Shown: positions 17,046 through 27,560, counted from the stretch's first letter. The stretch is DNA of 64,000 bases from Stygiolobus caldivivus (GCF_019704315.1 NZ_AP024597.1:1550001-1614000); one strand, 5' to 3'. The notes: generated by a model from the letters alone, not told the origin. A program made the numbers and translations.

Positions 17046-17246
17046 GTGGACCCCAAAGTCGTGATAAAGTTATTGGAGGATAGGCCCAGGCCTAGGGGTA
17101 GTAAGATAAGCGACGATGACCTGAGGAGGTTAGCCGGGCTCGCAAGGGAAAACATAAAGGTGCTTGAAGAGTTGGGGTGCTGGAAGACAGAAGGTGGTAT
17201 AATATACTACAAGACCGGTTGCTTAGGGAGTTACTTTCCAGAGTAG
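17046..17246 (+). CDS. small protein upstream of a nucleotidyltransferase
   Basis: A 66-residue protein starting with GTG. A TATA-like AGTATATTA about 27 bases upstream fits a leaderless start. It is helical and charged in the first two thirds (K-I-S-D-D-D-L-R-R-L-A-G-L-A-R-E-N-I-K-V-L-E-E-L), ending in a short W-K-T-E-G-G-I-I-Y-Y-K-T-G strand region. No family was recognised. It overlaps the following nucleotidyltransferase gene by up to 70 bases in another frame, so the two are probably expressed together. This arrangement recalls small antitoxin-like partners of minimal nucleotidyltransferases, though no HEPN or MNT partner motif is visible. Confidence 0.55.
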   Translation: MDPKVVIKLLEDRPRPRGSKISDDDLRRLAGLARENIKVLEELGCWKTEGGIIYYKTGCLGSYFPE

Positions 17247-17776
17247 GAGAACTAAGGGGTAGTGAGACTGACCGCTTTTTGAAGTTCTTGGCGATTTTAA
17301 ATACGTTACTTGAGGAGATGGGGGTAGGGAGAGTGGTGATCGTAGGGGGTTTCGCTGCTGAAGTTTATTCGGGCAGGGGCTATAGGACTGGCGACGTGGA
17401 CATAATAGTCGAGGGTGACACACAAATAGTCAGGGACGTCCTAAGGGAGATATCCGATTTCGGCATTAGGATTTACTTACCGAGAGTTAGAGAGATATCT
17501 GAGAAAGGGATTGACATAGTGAGCAACGTATATGATAGGCCAAAGCCCCCTCTAAGAATGAAAGTAGACTCCTATTACGTCTATATCCTCCCGCCTGAAG
17601 AAGTCGTGCTAAACTATTTAGAAGCATGGAAGTTCTGGAACAGTTTGGAAGACCGTAACAAGGCCGTGTTAGTTTACTGTGCACAGCTGGATAAGATTGA
17701 TTTAGCCTACCTTAACGACCAAGCGGAAAAGAGGAACGTGAACGACTATCTGGGTAGACTTAGGGAGTACTGTTAA
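17177..17776 (+). CDS. nucleotidyltransferase-fold protein
   Basis: Up to 199 residues from a GTG; a TTG at 17219 would shorten it by 14 residues and reduce the overlap with the upstream gene. The core motif V-I-V-G-G-F-A-A-E-V-Y-S-G-R-G-Y-R-T-G-D-V-D-I-I-V (around residues 53-77) has the Gly-Gly and D-x-D pattern of the DNA-polymerase-beta-like nucleotidyltransferase fold, as in AbiEii/DUF6036-type proteins. A later E-E-V-V-L-N-Y-L-E-A-W-K helix is also typical. Related proteins are toxins or RNA-modifying enzymes in TA and phage-defence systems, and the substrate is unknown here. It is flanked by decayed sequence, suggesting an accessory locus. Confidence 0.7.
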   Translation: MLEDRRWYNILQDRLLRELLSRVGELRGSETDRFLKFLAILNTLLEEMGVGRVVIVGGFAAEVYSGRGYRTGDVDIIVEGDTQIVRDVLREISDFGIRIYLPRVREISEKGIDIVSNVYDRPKPPLRMKVDSYYVYILPPEEVVLNYLEAWKFWNSLEDRNKAVLVYCAQLDKIDLAYLNDQAEKRNVNDYLGRLREYC

Positions 17777-18385: not shown

Positions 18386-18850
18386 TTAGGATGCTATTGC
18401 GGTCTCGTTAGGGGGTAATAGTACGAAAGTAGTTGAGTTATATGCTGATACCTGCAAAATTAATGGGTAATTAAAGGCTTCAGCGGGTACTGTGAAATTA
18501 TAGATTACAGCCTTCGGAAGACTCCCTACTGTTCTCCCTTGAGAGTTTACAGCTTGTATCTGCTTCGTTATGTTCACGATATTGCCTTGGTAAATGTAGT
18601 ACACCCCGGTCAACTCAAAATAGGGATCTGACTTATAGACTATTACTTGGTTATACTTAGGGTTGGCAGAGGTATTGTAATACACTATTACAGTACCTCC
18701 GTTAACTTGTTGGTTCGCCACTGTTTGGTAATTTATAGGCTTAGATGAGGGTGATGATATGTCAAGTAAGTAGAACATAAGGGGTATTAATAGCGCTACG
18801 ACTATTATCAGCGCAAAAATAAACCCCACGTATTCAGATTGTGCTTTCAT
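18386..18850 (-). CDS. pilin-like surface protein D (short)
   Basis: About 154 residues. The start is set at the ATG at 18850, because a perfect Shine-Dalgarno sequence (GGAGGTGA) lies just before it; an in-frame ATG at 18871 overlaps the preceding gene and would place the signal oddly. The N-terminus M-K-A-Q-S-E-Y-V-G-F followed by about 20 hydrophobic residues fits a class III (type IV pilin-like) signal cleaved by PibD after K-A. The ectodomain (V-Y-Y-I-Y-Q-G-N-I-V-N-I-T, then V-P-A-E-A-F-N-Y-P-L-I-L-Q-V-S-A) is similar to the first modules of the next two genes upstream. It is the last gene of the four-gene operon. Confidence 0.7.
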   Translation of the reverse strand: MKAQSEYVGFIFALIIVVALLIPLMFYLLDISSPSSKPINYQTVANQQVNGGTVIVYYNTSANPKYNQVIVYKSDPYFELTGVYYIYQGNIVNITKQIQAVNSQGRTVGSLPKAVIYNFTVPAEAFNYPLILQVSAYNSTTFVLLPPNETAIAS

Positions 18851-18867
18851 ATGTGCTCTCACCTCCA

Positions 18868-20316
18868 TCACAGCTGTTGATAGTACTCATTTATCCCATA
18901 TTTCACTTCTATATTACCCGGGTAGTATAATTTAATAACAGCAGCTGTGACCTCATTATAATTCCACACCTCAACATTATTATAATAGATATACAAGGCA
19001 CCTATTGAATAGGACTGTAATGGGTAGGGACACTGTATGAAGACCCCAGTAGGTGATGCAACATAAGTCCCAGCTAATATCCAATACGATTTACCGTAAT
19101 CATACACGGTACCATTCAATATAAAGTAAAATCCTGAATATGATTGAGTATTTCCTTCCTTCTGTATGGTTACATGGACATAGTACCCTTGCTCCGTATA
19201 GTAAATGTATAGAGTAGGATTAACGGCGGTAGGGGGAATGAAGAACACGAAACTCGGTGATGTGTACTCGGTACTTCCTACTTGAGAATATTGATACTTA
19301 TAGATGTATATGTAGCCATTAGATTCATCCCTTGTGTTATTAAAAAGTAGATAGTTGTTTGGTATATCTACTGAGACGTACCCTGCTAGCACCTTAACGG
19401 GACCTGGTACGGAGTAGAACTTTCCGTCCACTTTAATGCTTATTAGTTGCGTAGACGGTGAATTAGGCTCTTCAACTACGACATTAAGGGTTAAAGGAGT
19501 CGTGAGCTCTGAGTAGTTAGCTATAAGGACGACGCTTTGTCTCTCTAATGTTACCGAAATCCCCTGGGTAGTCGTTGAATTAACGACCGCTCGCCCTTGT
19601 ATTATCCAATTGTGGAACACACCAGTAATTATAGTCCCGTTTTGGAATTCGTAATATACATATTGGGGGACTTTAGCCTGAAAAGTCCCTGTTATATTAG
19701 GAAATGCTACTGGCATCGTATAGTTCTTAAACTGGTCATCTAGGATGTTAGTAGTCACATTGGCTACCGGGGCATAGATGTTATTTTTACTGGTAATCTC
19801 CGCCAATATCTCTACCCCACCCTTATTAGTCAAGGAGTAAGGACCTATTGAAGAGTTCGGCATCAAATAGAATAAATTACCTAAGCTCGTGACTATAATA
19901 ATCGGGTCCTTAACTACGTAAGACGGGATTGATAAGTCTTGAGAACTATTTATAACAATAGGGTATTTCAACGCTGTCAAGTTATTCCAAACCCCGTTAT
20001 CGAGATATAGGATTGCTATTATTGTGAGATTTATAGGAGGCACAAACGTACCGTTAGTGTACTCGAAGATGATAGAACCCTTCTGAGTACCTGCAGAGTA
20101 ATATATTGCAGGGTGACCACTTAAGACCGATTTATACTGTAACTGTTTAAGGGATACGTAGTTGTTCACAATCGCTCCAGATACCTGATCTGATTGCCTC
20201 AAATACTGCAAATAGAATAAAAAGGGCACAGCTAGTGATACTATAATTGCAATAAATATGAAAATTGCTATTGCTGAGCTCAAACCCCTACTATTATTTT
20301 TTATACTATATTTCAT
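18868..20316 (-). CDS. large pilin-like surface protein C
   Basis: A 482-residue protein with a class III signal-like N-terminus: a polar leader, S-R-G then L-S-S-A-I-A-I-F-I-F and a long hydrophobic helix; cleavage after R-G is predicted. Residues about 40-160 are paralogous to the same region of the 555-residue protein upstream: both have P-x-I-Y-Y-S-x-G-T, then I-V-T-(A/S)-L-(S/G)-N, then L-x-P-N-(T/S)-S. Further beta-rich domains follow, with many sequons and aromatic residues. It starts one base into the preceding stop (TAATG), with GGAGGTGG as a Shine-Dalgarno site. Its length is several times that of normal archaeal pilins, so it may be an adhesin or minor subunit. No function is known to me. 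Confidence 0.7.
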   Translation of the reverse strand: MKYSIKNNSRGLSSAIAIFIFIAIIVSLAVPFLFYLQYLRQSDQVSGAIVNNYVSLKQLQYKSVLSGHPAIYYSAGTQKGSIIFEYTNGTFVPPINLTIIAILYLDNGVWNNLTALKYPIVINSSQDLSIPSYVVKDPIIIVTSLGNLFYLMPNSSIGPYSLTNKGGVEILAEITSKNNIYAPVANVTTNILDDQFKNYTMPVAFPNITGTFQAKVPQYVYYEFQNGTIITGVFHNWIIQGRAVVNSTTTQGISVTLERQSVVLIANYSELTTPLTLNVVVEEPNSPSTQLISIKVDGKFYSVPGPVKVLAGYVSVDIPNNYLLFNNTRDESNGYIYIYKYQYSQVGSTEYTSPSFVFFIPPTAVNPTLYIYYTEQGYYVHVTIQKEGNTQSYSGFYFILNGTVYDYGKSYWILAGTYVASPTGVFIQCPYPLQSYSIGALYIYYNNVEVWNYNEVTAAVIKLYYPGNIEVKYGINEYYQQL

Positions 20317-21983
20317 TAAATACCACCTCCATTACTTGAAACACCACCGCCACTACTTGGGGGATAACCTGCGTATTCCCACATCGAATAAGCGGCTATT
20401 ATGGTAGGTGAATAGACGTAAATAGGAGGATATACGTTGTTAGGAGTATAATAGAAGACATATACGTTACTAGGAGTATAAGACGCGTTTTCAATTTCAA
20501 AGAAACAGGGTTCAGATAATAGAGAATTATAATTATTATTACTAATCGTAAATTGCCCAGCTATCTGTTCCAAATAGAAGTAAGTTACATCTATACGTGT
20601 ACCACTAGGTACATAAAACTCTTCGTTAGTAAAAGATTTTGAGGGCCCAATCACAATAGTTTCCGATGGATAACCGCTAGATTTAGGAGGAATAATATCT
20701 GCTCGTAGGAGCTGTGCAGCGATATCCCCACATATAGGTGTAGAGTTTGACTGCAAACTCACACCTTGAGGTAGTGAAAATGAGTTGTTTGCAATAACCA
20801 AGTAATAGTATACTTGGGGGTTAAACGGGATGTATACAGTCCCGCTTCCCATAACCTTGAATTCGTTTGGATTACAGATCTTTATAGCAGAACCATTACT
20901 ACTGTGAACACCGCTACTGACTAAAGTATATTCGATCATTTCTCCATAGGGTATAGTAGTCTTACCTAGTGTGTAGTTAAATACGAGGTAAAACGTAGAA
21001 GGGTATGTCAACGTGTGGAAACCGTAAGTAAGACATAAGGTTATAGAGGGATTAGTATAGTTGATAAAGTACTCATGGTTGTCTACATAGACCGGTAATG
21101 ATCGGTTTACATTTACTAACGTAGCTCCGGTATTAGGATCCTTAGTGACCCCTTCTATCGGAAGGGGGGTATGGAAATCTGGGCACGAGAATAATATCTT
21201 TACCTTATAATGCTTTAATGAAGTATTATAGAATAAAGTAAGGATTGTAGGGCCGTTAACTGTTAACACGGTCGAAGGAGTATCATTAGAACTTAACTGA
21301 GCAGTCCCTGTTACCTCCCACTTTAGGAACTGACCGGTAAGGCCGTACTCGCTTAAGAAAATTTGGGTGTCCTTAGCTGAAACGCTGTAGGTGCCCGGGT
21401 CAACATATAATATATAGGGGGTATTTTCTAGAGTGCTACCAAATTGGACACAAGTACTCACCGGGAGGGTTACATAACCACTTGAGGTCTTATTCAGGGC
21501 AATAGCGACAACATAAACCGGTATTTTACCGGTTGGACCTATCACGTTAGAAGTTGAGACGGACGTATTGGGGTTTAAAAACAGTACGTTGGACAGCGCG
21601 GTCACTATTACGACAGGTTCATTGAAAGCTTTACTCGGAAGGGGTATTACCATACTACCGTAGACGCCTACAGAACTATTCAATGTAGGTACCCACGTAG
21701 ACCCGTTAAAGTAGTATATCTGTGTTATATTAATCGGTGTCTGTACTGTTTGTACCTTTATCTGTACGTAAGGAGAAGTACCGGAGCTATAGTAGATTTC
21801 CGGGTTACCCCTGAATATATTGTTTAGTTCTAATTCCTTCTGTTGCTGGTAGGCTTGTGCAGCAACACTACCTTGGTTTGAATAATAAGGAGTATTATAC
21901 ATTATAAAGAAAGCTGGGATTAAGATCGAAAGTAAAATAAACAAGAATATTATTAAAGCTATAGAAGTAGCCAGACCCTTCAT
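20316..21983 (-). CDS. large pilin-like surface protein B
   Basis: A 555-residue protein that begins M-K-G then L-A-T-S-I-A-L-I-I-F-L-F, a strong class III signal with the K-G cleavage site followed by a pilin-type hydrophobic helix. The first module (about residues 45-155) matches protein C. The remainder is a long beta-rich ectodomain with several cysteines (for example F-S-C-P-D, L-C-L-T-Y and I-C-N-P) and ends in a glycine/serine-rich tail. It starts five bases after gene A, preceded by GGTGAGGT. Proteins B, C and D form one paralogous series of decreasing length (555, 482, 154). Confidence 0.7.
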   Translation of the reverse strand: MKGLATSIALIIFLFILLSILIPAFFIMYNTPYYSNQGSVAAQAYQQQKELELNNIFRGNPEIYYSSGTSPYVQIKVQTVQTPINITQIYYFNGSTWVPTLNSSVGVYGSMVIPLPSKAFNEPVVIVTALSNVLFLNPNTSVSTSNVIGPTGKIPVYVVAIALNKTSSGYVTLPVSTCVQFGSTLENTPYILYVDPGTYSVSAKDTQIFLSEYGLTGQFLKWEVTGTAQLSSNDTPSTVLTVNGPTILTLFYNTSLKHYKVKILFSCPDFHTPLPIEGVTKDPNTGATLVNVNRSLPVYVDNHEYFINYTNPSITLCLTYGFHTLTYPSTFYLVFNYTLGKTTIPYGEMIEYTLVSSGVHSSNGSAIKICNPNEFKVMGSGTVYIPFNPQVYYYLVIANNSFSLPQGVSLQSNSTPICGDIAAQLLRADIIPPKSSGYPSETIVIGPSKSFTNEEFYVPSGTRIDVTYFYLEQIAGQFTISNNNYNSLLSEPCFFEIENASYTPSNVYVFYYTPNNVYPPIYVYSPTIIAAYSMWEYAGYPPSSGGGVSSNGGGI

Positions 21984-21988
21984 TTACC

Positions 21989-22576
21989 TCACCCCGTAGA
22001 AGAAGGAACACCGGTATAAGCGTACCCTACTCTGAACATGTACAAGCCGTTATTGAACATAACCCATATTACTACGTAATACCCTTTTCCTCCGTTTGGT
22101 ACCCCCTGCATGTCAATTGTCACGGGAGTGTTCGACGGGATCGTGTATACGCTTAATTTCCCCTGATATAGCTGGTTCCCGTTAATATCATATATTTGAG
22201 TCGCAGTTATCTGTGACGCTTGTAACTTATTAGGCAAATACACTTGGAAGTTCACATTCTTTACGACGGGGAGGTTAGGGGTTACTACCCCTGCTGAGGT
22301 AACTAAATAAGAGGGGATAAGGAACACGTACACGGTGTAGTTACCGGAGTAGGAAGGGTCGTATGCCTCTACTAGTATACTACCTACTCCGTTACTCGAG
22401 ACAAGTAAGGGACCGGGAGAAATTGTAGTCTGAGAAGCTAGTTGGGAAGCTTGCTGTTCGGCTATCGTGAATGCTTCAGTAGGGGCGAGGAATGCCGATG
22501 TAAACCCGAACACTACTAACCCTATAATCAGAACAGCTATTACTATTATCATCGTCTGAACTACGCTTTCTACCAT
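21989..22576 (-). CDS. pilin-like surface protein A, first gene of the operon
   Basis: A 195-residue protein with a very short N-terminal leader (M-V-E-S-V-V-Q) followed by about 22 hydrophobic residues, like archaeal pilins and archaellins, but without the usual K/R-G cleavage motif. The ectodomain is paralogous to the first half of the divergent gene at 22637: both share a V-Y-L-P-(N/D)-x-(L/x)-type segment, a G-x-x-L-Y-Q-G/L-L-G-T-V segment, and a closing V-x-W-V-x-(F/V)-x-x-x-x-Y-x-(F/L)-x-x-G-Y-(A/T)-Y block. A TATA-like TTTATATTT about 27 bases before the ATG indicates a leaderless first gene, in contrast to the Shine-Dalgarno sites of the rest of the operon. Confidence 0.72.
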   Translation of the reverse strand: MVESVVQTMIIVIAVLIIGLVVFGFTSAFLAPTEAFTIAEQQASQLASQTTISPGPLLVSSNGVGSILVEAYDPSYSGNYTVYVFLIPSYLVTSAGVVTPNLPVVKNVNFQVYLPNKLQASQITATQIYDINGNQLYQGKLSVYTIPSNTPVTIDMQGVPNGGKGYYVVIWVMFNNGLYMFRVGYAYTGVPSSTG

Positions 22577-22602
22577 CTAAATACCACTATTTGGAAATTC
22601 GA

Positions 22603-22621
22603 AAAATATAAATATAAATTT
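22603..22621. promoter_or_regulatory. shared AT-rich TATA element for divergent surface genes
   Basis: AAAATATAAATATAAATTTT can be read as a TATA box on either strand. It lies 25-30 bases from the ATG at 22576 (minus) and about 20-30 bases from the ATG at 22637 (plus). Only 60 bases separate the two starts, so the two halves of the locus probably share regulation. Confidence 0.6.
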
Positions 22622-22636
22622 TGCTGAGAAAAGTCT

Positions 22637-23995
22637 ATGGGAAACGCGATAGTTAACATGATGCTCGTTATCGCGACTGTACTAATTTCGATAGTCGCCC
22701 TAAGCCTCTATTCCTTCTATATCTCGTACACAAATTCAAACTTAGCTTATATCAACGCCTTCGAATCATTTTCAAAGTCTATTACGATAAGTGTTTCACC
22801 TCTGTCTTTTAAAGCGTACACGAACAGAAACCCTATAATATTTAACGTCTCGTTCTTAGCTTCTGTCTCCGTTAAACACTACGATTTAAATAAAGGTGAG
22901 CTAATCGTCGTACCCTTCGTTACACATTCCAACCCTAACATCTACTTGTACGTACCTACCGGACTTCAAAATAGTAGCATTAACGTTAGCAGTACTATAC
23001 CCGTAAACGGTCAAGTGTACCTGCCAGACGGTAATTTATTAGGCACTGTAAACATGGAGGGCTACAAGGTACTAAACGGCCAAGTATTTTCAGTAACTTC
23101 AAACGTGACCAGTAGTGAGGTCATAGTACTATGGGTATTAGTGGAGTTCCAAGGGAAGTTTTACAGGCTAGGTTATACTTACTTAGTACCCCAAGACGAA
23201 GGGTTAGGAGTGTATGTAGCTTCTTCTTCAGGGAGATATAACCCTTCTAACATCCAAGTAAACCTAAACCCACCTTTAATATTCGCGAGTAATAAGGGGT
23301 TAGTGTTCGGGATGTGGTTTGAACCGTACCTTATTTCGCCAAGTAAGTCCATGCTCGTAAACATCACTTTCGAGCTTAAAGCCAACCAGAAAGTTTCCTT
23401 GGTATTTTACACACAAGGTAACGGCGTTTACGTAAACGAGACCGTTTTACAACTAAATAATCTTATTACTTCGTCCGTTGTAGAGACAATTTACAAGGGG
23501 ATTGTGCAAGGGCAGTGGTATTTCTTAAACTTTAGTACCGGGGCACAACAACTTGTAGGGCCTAACTTGGAAATGTACATCAGTTTATATGATGCGAACC
23601 ACAAACAGTTAAGTAAAGTCCAGTTAATTAACCCAGCTATAGCTAGTGCTAACGGTTATGCTTCGATAATCCAGTTCGGGAACTCTACGTCTTCCGTGAA
23701 TTTGATTTCCCAAGCCGTTATGTCAAGTGAACAAAACCCAAACGCTCCTATGTACGAAGTTACTGGGAGCCTACTTACGAACGGTTATCTATATAATAAT
23801 TCCAATGACCTATATCAGATTATAGGAAGTTCTCCAAAAGAGATATACTCAATAGTTTACTGGTACTTTGTCTCACCTTATTATCCCCCTCCTTCTCAGG
23901 TAAGCGCAACAGTCTGGTATTATCCTCAAGGGAGTAAATCCGTTGCTACCACGTATATATACGAAACCGGGAATAATATGTGGGTTTTAAGCTGA
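22637..23995 (+). CDS. pilin-like surface protein with possible lectin-type (LamG-like) domain
   Basis: A 452-residue protein. The N-terminus (M-G-N-A-I-V-N-M-M-L-V-I-A-T-V-L-I) is an uncleaved or pilin-type hydrophobic helix after only a few residues. Residues 35-190 are paralogous to protein A. From about residue 195 a second, beta-rich region contains G-L-V-F-G-M-W-F-E-P, then L-V-F-Y-T-Q-G-N-G-V-Y-V, then G-Q-W-Y-F-L-N-F-S. That pattern recalls concanavalin/LamG-like jelly-roll domains, which bind sugars or surfaces. The resemblance is by pattern only. Fused behind a pilin-like N-terminus it would be a good candidate for a tip adhesin. Confidence 0.65.
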   Translation: MGNAIVNMMLVIATVLISIVALSLYSFYISYTNSNLAYINAFESFSKSITISVSPLSFKAYTNRNPIIFNVSFLASVSVKHYDLNKGELIVVPFVTHSNPNIYLYVPTGLQNSSINVSSTIPVNGQVYLPDGNLLGTVNMEGYKVLNGQVFSVTSNVTSSEVIVLWVLVEFQGKFYRLGYTYLVPQDEGLGVYVASSSGRYNPSNIQVNLNPPLIFASNKGLVFGMWFEPYLISPSKSMLVNITFELKANQKVSLVFYTQGNGVYVNETVLQLNNLITSSVVETIYKGIVQGQWYFLNFSTGAQQLVGPNLEMYISLYDANHKQLSKVQLINPAIASANGYASIIQFGNSTSSVNLISQAVMSSEQNPNAPMYEVTGSLLTNGYLYNNSNDLYQIIGSSPKEIYSIVYWYFVSPYYPPPSQVSATVWYYPQGSKSVATTYIYETGNNMWVLS

Positions 23996-24014
23996 GAGGT
24001 TATTAAGTGGTTTT

Positions 24015-24365
24015 ATGGCGTTTACGGTATTTTTAGTCCTAGGTATAGTAATAACAGTTACGTCACTTTACTTTTTTCTATACGGGGAGTTGATGCTCCA
24101 TAAGGCGAAGACAAAGGGGCCGGCCAGCCCCTTCACGTATAGGGTCTTACTAGTCCTTAAAATAATGTTAGTGATACTGTTCTCTGCTTTTTTGCTAGTT
24201 TACTTTGAATATAACTTACCTTTTTACTCTACAATATTCTCCTCTATATCTACTATAAATTCAATATACCTACTTAGGATAAAGAGGATTAGTGCCCCGG
24301 TACTGATAGGAAATTTACTGTTGACGAGTGCTTCTTTTTACCTATTTTACTTGTCTTTGTACTAA
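24015..24365 (+). CDS. small three- to four-helix membrane protein
   Basis: A 116-residue protein with hydrophobic segments at about residues 3-25, 45-68, 72-86 and 95-115. It has no recognised motif. It starts 19 bases after the preceding surface-protein gene on the same strand, so co-transcription is likely. It could be an assembly or anchoring partner for the neighbouring surface proteins, but there is no direct evidence. Confidence 0.6.
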   Translation: MAFTVFLVLGIVITVTSLYFFLYGELMLHKAKTKGPASPFTYRVLLVLKIMLVILFSAFLLVYFEYNLPFYSTIFSSISTINSIYLLRIKRISAPVLIGNLLLTSASFYLFYLSLY

Positions 24366-24470
24366 GTGACCTTAAATTGATAAAGAAAGTCGCCTCGCGA
24401 GATATTTCTAGTAAGATTTATCGTGATATTTATAGCAAGATTTATATAGACATATTCCAAAATTTTGATT

Positions 24471-25355
24471 ATGAAAAATAAATATTATTATTTTAAAGGA
24501 GTGAGTGATGTCACCACTGTTTTGATCCTTGTTGTTGCATTTATCATTATAGTGTTAATATTTCTAGGGCTATTCTTTGGGCTTTTACACCCACCAGCGA
24601 CTGCAAAGGCTGTAGGCACGGGTATGTTAGTGTGTTCTAATAATTATTATATAGCCTATTTTTACATGAAATCCAACGGCAACCTCCAAATAGATTCTGC
24701 GACGATTTACGGTACAAACATAAACGCCCTAAATAACGCTACATTAACTAACGGAGAAAACACAATAGAGTTAATCTTCCCTACCTCACCTCAATTCATA
24801 CCGCAAGAAGGCGAGACTTACCAGGTCATAGTAGGGCTGAGTAACGGAGAAAATGTCCAAGTGACATTAGTGTTTTTGGGAAATACACCACTACCATCGC
24901 CTCCGCCACCACCTACTAGCACGTCTACGGTACCGACGACATCGTCCTCTTCACCGAGCACCACGACAAATTCTCAAACCACCTCAACAAGTAGTAAGTC
25001 TACTAGTACGACCACGTCTACAACGTCTTCTTCATCGAGTACCACAACTACCTCCAGTACGACGTCAAGTAACTCACCTCCTCCACCCCCTCCTCCATCA
25101 TCAAGCAGTACTACTACATCTACTTCAAGTTCAAGTAATGGCGGCGGTAATGGCGGCGGAGGTAGTCCTCCTTCGAGTAGTTCGTCCTCAAGTTCTCCAT
25201 CATCGTCATCACAAGGTTCTTCTTCGTCTTCCAGTCCTCCACCTATAATAGCAATTACCAAAAGCGATTCGAGCTTGGTAAACCTGATACCAGCTATAGT
25301 TTTAGTTGGACTAGCGGTTTATTATTCTAGGAATTTTGTGGCTGATAATAAATAA
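24471..25355 (+). CDS. pilin-like protein with Ser/Thr/Pro-rich stalk and C-terminal membrane helix
   Basis: About 294 residues. The start is placed at the ATG at 24471, with TTTATATA 27 bases upstream; a TTG six bases earlier is less likely. The N-terminus has F-K-G then V-S-D-V-T-T-V-L-I-L-V-V-A, a class III signal with the K-G cleavage motif. A compact beta-rich domain covers about residues 45-145. Residues about 148-262 are almost entirely Ser, Thr and Pro with a Gly/Asn insert, as in heavily O-glycosylated stalks. A hydrophobic segment near the C-terminus (L-I-P-A-I-V-L-V-G-L-A-V-Y-Y) could anchor it. Two membrane segments around a glycan-rich stalk is an unusual layout for a pilin. Confidence 0.7.
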   Translation: MKNKYYYFKGVSDVTTVLILVVAFIIIVLIFLGLFFGLLHPPATAKAVGTGMLVCSNNYYIAYFYMKSNGNLQIDSATIYGTNINALNNATLTNGENTIELIFPTSPQFIPQEGETYQVIVGLSNGENVQVTLVFLGNTPLPSPPPPPTSTSTVPTTSSSSPSTTTNSQTTSTSSKSTSTTTSTTSSSSSTTTTSSTTSSNSPPPPPPPSSSSTTTSTSSSSNGGGNGGGGSPPSSSSSSSSPSSSSQGSSSSSSPPPIIAITKSDSSLVNLIPAIVLVGLAVYYSRNFVADNK

Positions 25356-25379: not shown

Positions 25380-25650
25380 ATATTATTGTTCATATTATTG
25401 TATGTATATAGTAATATAATATTTTTATAATAATATCTGGTCAGAATTAAATCAGGGTAAGTATTTTAAATAATTACGATATTAATCTATATCTATCGTA
25501 CATAAATTTATAAAATTTAGCCTAAACATGTTTTAAAGCTATCAACATAATACATAATATGCTATAACGGGTAATGAAATTGTTAATTTTCGCTCTATTA
25601 TATATCAACAAAATTTTTATAACGGGAAAAGATTGAAATATCTAATTAGA

Positions 25651-25968
25651 ATGACGGTAACAGTATCAAGATACGTAGAGCCTTCAATTTATGAATTTCT
25701 TGTAAAGCTGAACCTTACGACTTGCTGGTTACTGGACTTTAAAGTTATAACTAATCCTGAAGCTTTCTTCAATAACTTTATCCTAAATAAATACGATAAC
25801 TTGGCAATTATCGTAAATGAGAGATCGAAGGAAAAAGTAAGAGAGATAGTCGAACTTGCAAAGGACAACTGGGTCTCAGTCCTAGCATTTATTAGCGATA
25901 ACTTAAGAGAGGAAAAGTTTTTACTATGTGTTAAAAGTAAAATCAAAATAAAGAATTTTACCTCCTAG
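25651..25968 (+). CDS. orphan small protein, paralogue 1
   Basis: A 105-residue protein I do not recognise. It is a paralogue of the gene at 27267-27560: both begin M-T-V-x-x-S-R-(Y/F)-x-E-P-S, and share L-N-L-x-T-C-W-L-(L/F)-(D/N)-F-K, then P-E-A-F and a final F-L-(L/I)-C-V-K. The ATG at 25651 is chosen over the TTG at 25633 because it aligns with the start of the paralogue; a TATA-like TTTTTATAA lies about 33 bases upstream. The pattern suggests a small alpha/beta protein with two conserved cysteines. The pair flanks tRNA-Thr and a hairpin-rich non-coding region. Confidence 0.7.
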   Translation: MTVTVSRYVEPSIYEFLVKLNLTTCWLLDFKVITNPEAFFNNFILNKYDNLAIIVNERSKEKVREIVELAKDNWVSVLAFISDNLREEKFLLCVKSKIKIKNFTS

Positions 25969-27266: not shown

Positions 27267-27560
27267 ATGACAGTTCCGGCTTCAAGGTTCACAGAACCTT
27301 CGGTTACAGAGTTCCTCAGTAAATTAAACCTTGACACTTGTTGGCTCTTTAATTTTAAGGCGATTAAAGACCCTGAAGCCTTTCTTAAAACTGTATTTTT
27401 CTCTAGATACACTACTTTAGGTTTTGTAACTAATGAAAATGAAAGAGATAAAGGTAAGCAACTGGTGGAAATAGCTAGAAAGTATAACATAACAGCAATA
27501 GCTTATTTGAGTAGGAGTGTCCCTTCAAACAGCTTCCTCATATGCGTCAAGGAAAAATGA
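27267..27560 (+). CDS. orphan small protein, paralogue 2
   Basis: A 97-residue protein, the paralogue of the gene at 25651-25968 (shared M-T-V start, T-C-W-L motif, D/N-P-E-A-F and a C-V-K end). The function is unknown. Both copies keep the cysteine in T-C-W and the one in L-x-C-V-K, which could pair or bind a metal; that is speculation. An AT-rich TATA-like sequence (AAATTATAC) lies 24-30 bases before the ATG. It ends 14 bases before the stop codon of the TPR gene on the other strand. Confidence 0.7.
   Translation: MTVPASRFTEPSVTEFLSKLNLDTCWLFNFKAIKDPEAFLKTVFFSRYTTLGFVTNENERDKGKQLVEIARKYNITAIAYLSRSVPSNSFLICVKEK

Follow-up and report, generated by a model that had tools for sequence, protein, structure and literature searches.

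The archaeal adhesive (Aap) pili of Sulfolobus retract and power twitching (PMC11178785). The solved Aap shaft contains AapB only, and the tip is not resolved (PMC11178815, PMC11178785). Most Sulfolobus substrates of the peptidase PibD are without an assigned role (PMC4371748). The clade-4A type IV pilus (T4P) loci of the Desulfurococcales contain three to four untraced extra components, which Makarova et al. (2016, PMC4858521) suggested to be a set of minor pilins. We analyzed a 64,000-nucleotide stretch of the Stygiolobus caldivivus genome (NZ_AP024597.1:1550001-1614000; the window) in which five genes encode the pilin-like proteins A to E. We consider it moderately probable that A to E, encoded in trans, are an expanded minor-pilin/adhesin complex of Aap-type pili, probably positioned at the tip and carrying a lectin-like domain in E. 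Sequence comparison supports the pilin homology and the linkage of homologous modules to pilus motors, and we infer complex formation, the tip position and ligand binding by A to E. The set belongs to the known archaeal T4P minor pilins; what is new is that it is trans-encoded, combines several pilin types and is partly leaderless. An earlier description of the five-gene set was not found in the open-licence literature.

A preliminary description of the locus had read seven open reading frames (ORFs) in two diverging groups, and all seven were confirmed in the window at the coordinates of Table 1. The N-terminal module that it assigned to the proteins of 555, 482 and about 154 residues (C, B and A) is indeed shared. 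blastp aligned B with C across ~300 N-terminal residues (E-value 1.8e-18) and A with the first 145 residues of C (E-value 0.001), and profile-profile comparison scored B-C at 99.95% and both A-C and A-B at 97%. The second ectodomain type proposed for the 195- and 452-residue proteins D and E, whose genes diverge 60 bases apart, was also recovered; D aligned with the first 190 residues of E (E-value 7e-5 across ~200 residues), and the profile-profile score was 98.8-99.5%. Every profile-profile match between A/B/C and D/E was at or below 9%. The paralogy in both is above chance, and the groupings are firm. Pfam, NCBIfam and single-sequence PDB searches of A to E returned no useful family, and a viral contig scan returned no relatives of the window proteins.

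Class III sites were located by a motif scan for [KR][GA] before a hydrophobic helix and not by FlaFind itself. The scan bore out the class III signal-like peptides that had been noted in three of the proteins. The leader is present in 23 of 24 A, 24 of 24 B and 23 of 24 C orthologues, a total of 70 of 72 sequences, and proline occupies exactly position +20 of the mature protein (P20) in 70 of the 70 sequences with a site. Of 86 other class III-like proteins in a broader pool, 59 were without proline between +15 and +26, 1 had it at +23 and 26 had it at +20. These 26 are locus fragments or variants, mini-locus proteins, UpsB and large pilins beside Aap-type motors. By their class III leaders, A, B and C fall within the archaeal type IV pilin superfamily.

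AlphaFold2 was used to model C and E from six-sequence alignments (five loci found by genome contig scan), and the C orthologue alignment used elsewhere comprised 24 sequences. The C model, of moderate confidence (predicted local distance difference test [pLDDT] 71), has a helix at residues 3-56 followed by beta strands. The E model (pLDDT 64) has a helix at residues 2-47, then a D-type domain and beta strands. The predicted helix followed by a beta head is the arrangement of the pilin superfamily, and the pilin-like N-terminal helices anticipated by the preliminary description are thus predicted in both proteins. Foldseek matched the C model to multidomain immunoglobulin (Ig)-like/CnaB pilus proteins with E-values down to 1e-7 and a template modeling (TM) score of ~0.2, a level at which the match is informative on domain type only.

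A class III leader is present in 0 of 26 D and 1 of 25 E sequences, and D and E are for this reason called pilin-like and not prepilins. In the window, an in-frame TAG lies immediately 5' of the ATG of D, and a TGA lies four codons 5' of the start codon of E with no start codon in between. The D profile matched the solved Sulfolobales adhesion pilins 6w8x, 8fjs and 6nav (E-values 0.003-0.014), with its first residues at their mature N-terminus. The absence of a leader together with this register indicates that D and E start where a processed pilin starts. The sole E orthologue with a class III leader (genome G023, L065:6741-8090) begins MKG/VSTAIIALIL, and this exception suggests that the leader was lost in the remaining E proteins.

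Foldseek matched the E model to many LamG/LNS domains, including those of neurexin and thrombospondin-1 (probability ~0.97-1.0, E-value ~0.01, TM score up to ~0.4). The matching part of the model is probably the second domain of E. Laminin_G_3 was matched by 1 of 22 E family members (E-value 4.5e-4), and the E profile had no match among solved structures. The lectin-like assignment of this modeled domain is plausible.

Gene order was compared in 40 regions read from related genomes. When 60 related genomes were searched, C-like proteins turned up in 30 and D-like proteins also in 30, all in the Sulfolobaceae, and none in ten sister families of the order. A to E are a conserved set in ~26 of 31 Sulfolobaceae genomes. 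The five genes are contiguous and complete in ~20 genomes, and ~6 more have the set in damaged or partly displaced form or cut by the end of a contig or record; examples are G016 (C frameshifted), G005 (B interrupted) and G022 (degenerate). Typically, A-B-C-D and E are transcribed divergently. The gene for E precedes C on the same strand in G008 and G016, both Sulfolobus-type genomes, and is placed after A in G012. A survey of gene order in the Sulfolobales had been proposed earlier, and it shows the gene content A to E to be conserved across the Sulfolobaceae. The frameshift in G016 (L069:13156-14840) lies near codon 70-80 of C, which is intact in the near relative G008; it may be a strain defect, a sequencing error or phase variation.

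Genomes G003 and G006 are without the canonical proteins, yet have all five types together at a single locus, with exchanged sizes (C-like, 822/733 residues; E-like, 758/803; B-like, 164; A-like, 132/152; D, 188/181). Several genomes also have two-gene mini-loci in which a small D-type protein lies beside a 516-730-residue protein, mostly with P20. Constant helix types with interchangeable ectodomains are a better fit to an assembly of different subunits than to a polymer. The mini-loci (L078, L081, L082, L083, L084, L076 and L077) pair a small leaderless D-type protein with a mostly P20 class III protein and are a wider family of pilin pairs in several Sulfolobaceae.

A search of the genome with PF00437 agreed with the earlier statement that no secretion ATPase or TadC-like platform gene is near the locus; all four hits lie elsewhere. 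The first is in the ups operon (UpsX-E-F-A-B) at 2.56 Mb, separate from the A to E locus, and the second is in a locus containing several small pilins. The third, at 2.609 Mb, appears not to be a pilus ATPase and was judged non-pilus on sequence and context. The fourth is part of an ATPase/platform pair at 314-318 kb that has no pilins with it. Nearly all Sulfolobaceae genomes contain a single close orthologue of this ATPase, and that of S. acidocaldarius sits between two AapB-type pilins. Orthology and this position identify the pair as AapE/AapF, and the idea of an unknown orphan machine was rejected. A PibD-like peptidase and Aap-type pilins are encoded elsewhere in the same genome. The genome carrying A to E therefore contains AapE/F, PibD and Aap-type pilins, which supports the earlier suggestion that a pilin-like surface system takes its assembly machinery from elsewhere. 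The draft genome G005 (99% complete, 20 contigs) keeps a near-complete set, and no pilus-type ATPase other than AapE was found in it.

Homologous modules lie beside such motors in the sister families. Five AapE-like loci have a large class III P20 pilin (341-717 residues) beside a 198-225-residue class III-like pilin. The profile matches of the large pilins were 95% to UpsB, 94% to A and 93% to B, versus 0.7% to D and <1% to D/E. The match of the ~210-residue pilins to D varied with the alignment used, at 91% for 174 columns and 60% for 53 columns. They also matched A (91%) and UpsB (93%) over shorter stretches, so their assignment to D is not exclusive. Each of the two pilin types occurs in 15 of 29 sister-family genomes, usually adjacent to the other, and position comparison placed both no more than ~10 kb from an AapE-like gene in 9 of ~15 genomes. 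The extra components of the clade-4A loci are probably the same proteins as this large P20 pilin and ~210-residue pilin beside the AapE/F-like genes. The Sulfolobaceae set differs in lying away from aapEF, in having three P20 and two D-type proteins, and in the loss of the D-type leader. Most simply, the Sulfolobaceae locus would be a relocated, expanded version of the clade-4A component set. Large secreted proteins (~980-1500 residues) also adjoin AapE-like genes in many sister-family loci (L119-L135) and are possible surface-layer (S-layer) or adhesin components of the same machine.

The proposed mechanism starts with an Aap-type machine, consisting of the AapE ATPase, the AapF platform and the PibD peptidase, that would serve A to E from other loci. 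A, B and C would be inserted into the membrane and cut by PibD after the short [KR][GA] leader to release helices with P20. D and E would be translated without a leader from the position at which a processed pilin starts, and PibD should not be needed for these two. The five proteins would associate through their N-terminal helices, and AapE/F would carry the complex out at the far end of a pilus with a shaft of small AapB-type pilins. The adhesive head would consist of the large Ig-like heads of B and C together with the lectin-like domain of E. Five different pilin types, three of them with 400-500-residue heads, are ill suited to building a shaft; a complex that sits at the tip or primes the pilus is a good candidate role for them. 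Compared with the Aap pilus (AapA, AapB, AapE, AapF and AapX), the motor and peptidase are likely shared and the D profile matches AapB-type pilins in the mature register, whereas A to E are mostly much larger, are not shaft pilins and occupy a separate locus. In bacteria, the tip complexes FimU-PilVWXE-PilY1 and GspHIJK consist of several large-headed pilins from one locus and are thought to cap or prime the filament. They are an analogy only, with no sequence homology claimed and with different processing; we know of no leaderless members among them.

Several observations weigh against this assignment. In none of the Sulfolobaceae loci read do A to E adjoin aapEF. Because every member of the family has AapE, its co-occurrence with the set carries little weight outside G005, and there both copies of B are interrupted. 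When the sister-family pool was searched with the D profile by hmmsearch, the top hits were mostly the ~210-residue proteins, but they were weak (best E-value 0.0033). The structure models are of low to moderate confidence, and the N-termini of D and E also resemble ArlG and ArlF, proteins of the filament base. A formulation that admits either end, a five-subunit tip or base complex of adhesion pili made of PibD-processed P20 pilins and leaderless pilins, is put forward tentatively.

If the tip assignment is true, the Aap pili of crenarchaea would have a modular adhesin head of their own, encoded at a distance from the motor. The conserved set provides concrete tip candidates in genetically tractable species and could explain the surface grip of the acid-loving, heat-loving Sulfolobaceae. 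Two features may be of general use, namely P20 as a marker for one pilin subclass and the existence of leaderless pilin-like proteins.

The main rival of the tip assignment places the proteins at the filament base. D and E would act like ArlG and ArlF, span the pseudoperiplasm and anchor a pilus to the S-layer, for example during Aap retraction, with A to C as associated surface pilins. ArlF and ArlG are likewise pilin-fold proteins without class III leaders that start at the hydrophobic helix, and the D profile scores 85% to ArlG and 71% to ArlF versus 33% to UpsA and 17% to AapB. D and ArlG also have a similar S-E-V-[IV]-x-E motif before the helix. This level of similarity is not specific, because ArlG and ArlF themselves score ~65-85% against the ordinary pilins AapB and UpsA, and it is confined to the N-terminus and lost in ectodomain comparison. 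The ectodomains were without a match, and D was rejected as a true ArlG orthologue. D and E have neither the whole-length homology nor the arl operon position that define the ArlF/ArlG family, and the set is present in genomes without an archaellum ATPase, including S. caldivivus, where no arl ATPase was identified among the PF00437 hits. The predicted lectin-like domain of E and the size of B and C, too large for a simple collar, also argue against a base position, which we regard as unlikely. ArlFG has been called exclusive to the archaellum (PMC8667602); if D and E work like ArlF/ArlG, they would be a non-archaellar stator counterpart and that claim would need revision.

Stand-alone adhesins are a quite improbable explanation of the set. 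The helices would only tether membrane-anchored proteins under the S-layer, with no extrusion by a motor. This would fit a locus without a machinery gene, and Sulfolobus PibD also processes non-pilus proteins such as substrate-binding proteins (PMC4371748). It does not fit the link of homologous modules to AapE/F in the sister families or the conservation of P20 and pilin-type helices. Archaeal threads (Saci_0406) are similar in being encoded in a Sulfolobales surface-protein locus without a motor gene, but they are signal peptidase I substrates, independent of PibD and joined by donor strands (PMC9715654). A to E have class III sites or no leader, and their profiles had no significant match to the ORFs of the thread region L100. 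Identity with threads was rejected on these grounds.

A role as UpsC-like accessory pilins of the UV-inducible (Ups) pili has a very low probability. UpsB is the best match of the A, B and C helices among known pilins (89%, 97% and 94%, respectively) and also has P20, and UpsC is another Ups pilin that is unlinked (PMC11868833). UpsB differs in its size of 129-139 residues, in its operon with UpsE/F and in having no five-gene architecture. The A to E locus lacks UpsE/UpsF, G005 keeps the set although no UpsE-type ATPase was found there, and the homologous modules of the sister families sit with Aap-type motors. UpsC (SiRe_1957) is unlikely to be one of A to E, since it is reported as a lone DNA-damage-induced gene. 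Bindosome (Bas) loci have small PilA-type pilins and a BasE/F operon, and the A to E locus has no ATPase or platform gene.

An independent new filament of large pilins, the idea of the preliminary description, drew on the pilin-like N-termini and large ectodomains but is highly implausible, given no dedicated motor, five different subunits (three of 450-555 residues) where solved Sulfolobales shaft pilins have ~130-145, and an architecture that resembles a heteromeric complex and not a polymer. A large subunit size does not by itself imply a new filament, and the evidence points instead to minor pilins of an existing Aap-type system. Donor-strand complementation, also raised there, found no support in the sequences, which have no homology to thread subunits and carry class III and not signal-peptidase-I signals in A to C.

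Table 1. Features of the A to E locus and its surroundings; positions are counted from the first nucleotide of the window, and a slash marks the predicted class III cleavage site.
Feature	Position	Strand	Description
A	18386..18850	-	154-residue P20-type class III pilin-like protein, KA/QSEYVGFIFALIIVVALLIP
B	18868..20316	-	482-residue P20-type class III pilin-like protein with large ectodomain, RG/LSSAIAIFIFIAIIVSLAVP
C	20316..21983	-	555-residue P20-type class III pilin-like protein, KG/LATSIALIIFLFILLSILIP; tandem beta-sandwich domains after long N-terminal helix
D	21989..22576	-	195-residue leaderless pilin-like protein
D-E intergenic region	22577..22636		60 bases, divergent; AT-rich TATA-like stretch at ~22606-22618 common to both genes (sequence reading), putative shared promoter
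E	22637..23995	+	452-residue leaderless pilin-like protein; D-type module and second, LamG/ConA-like lectin-resembling domain
Membrane protein	24015-24365		116 residues; located, as is the stalk protein, between E and the DUF4898-like genes
Stalk protein	24465-25355		296 residues, TTG start; pilin-like N-terminal helix, long Ser/Thr/Pro/Gly stalk with a second hydrophobic stretch at its end
Small genes	25633-25968 and 27267-27560		Pair of similar genes, weakly resembling DUF4898
Protein just outside the locus	17177-17776		199 residues, weak nucleotidyltransferase (DUF6036/DUF2204) similarity

Translation of A from a GTG at 18871 gives 161 residues, and translation from the internal ATG at 18850 gives the 154-residue protein opening MKAQSEY. 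The preliminary description had counted the 116- and 296-residue proteins in a seven-gene set. This set was rejected, as only A to E are conserved together and the two genes are not conserved in other Sulfolobaceae loci. The 116-residue membrane protein had no relatives in any compared locus, and among the compared loci the 296-residue gene occupies its position in this genome only. The absence of positional orthologues and the neighbor order in the congeneric genome G001 place both genes outside the system. A segment of the 296-residue protein resembles the C-terminal part of DUF973 (E-value 1.9e-8), the sole useful family match among the seven proteins. In G001, the gene after E is of the DUF4898 type, which in the window lies beyond the 116- and 296-residue genes; one of the two small genes of Table 1 stands beside the set in that genome.

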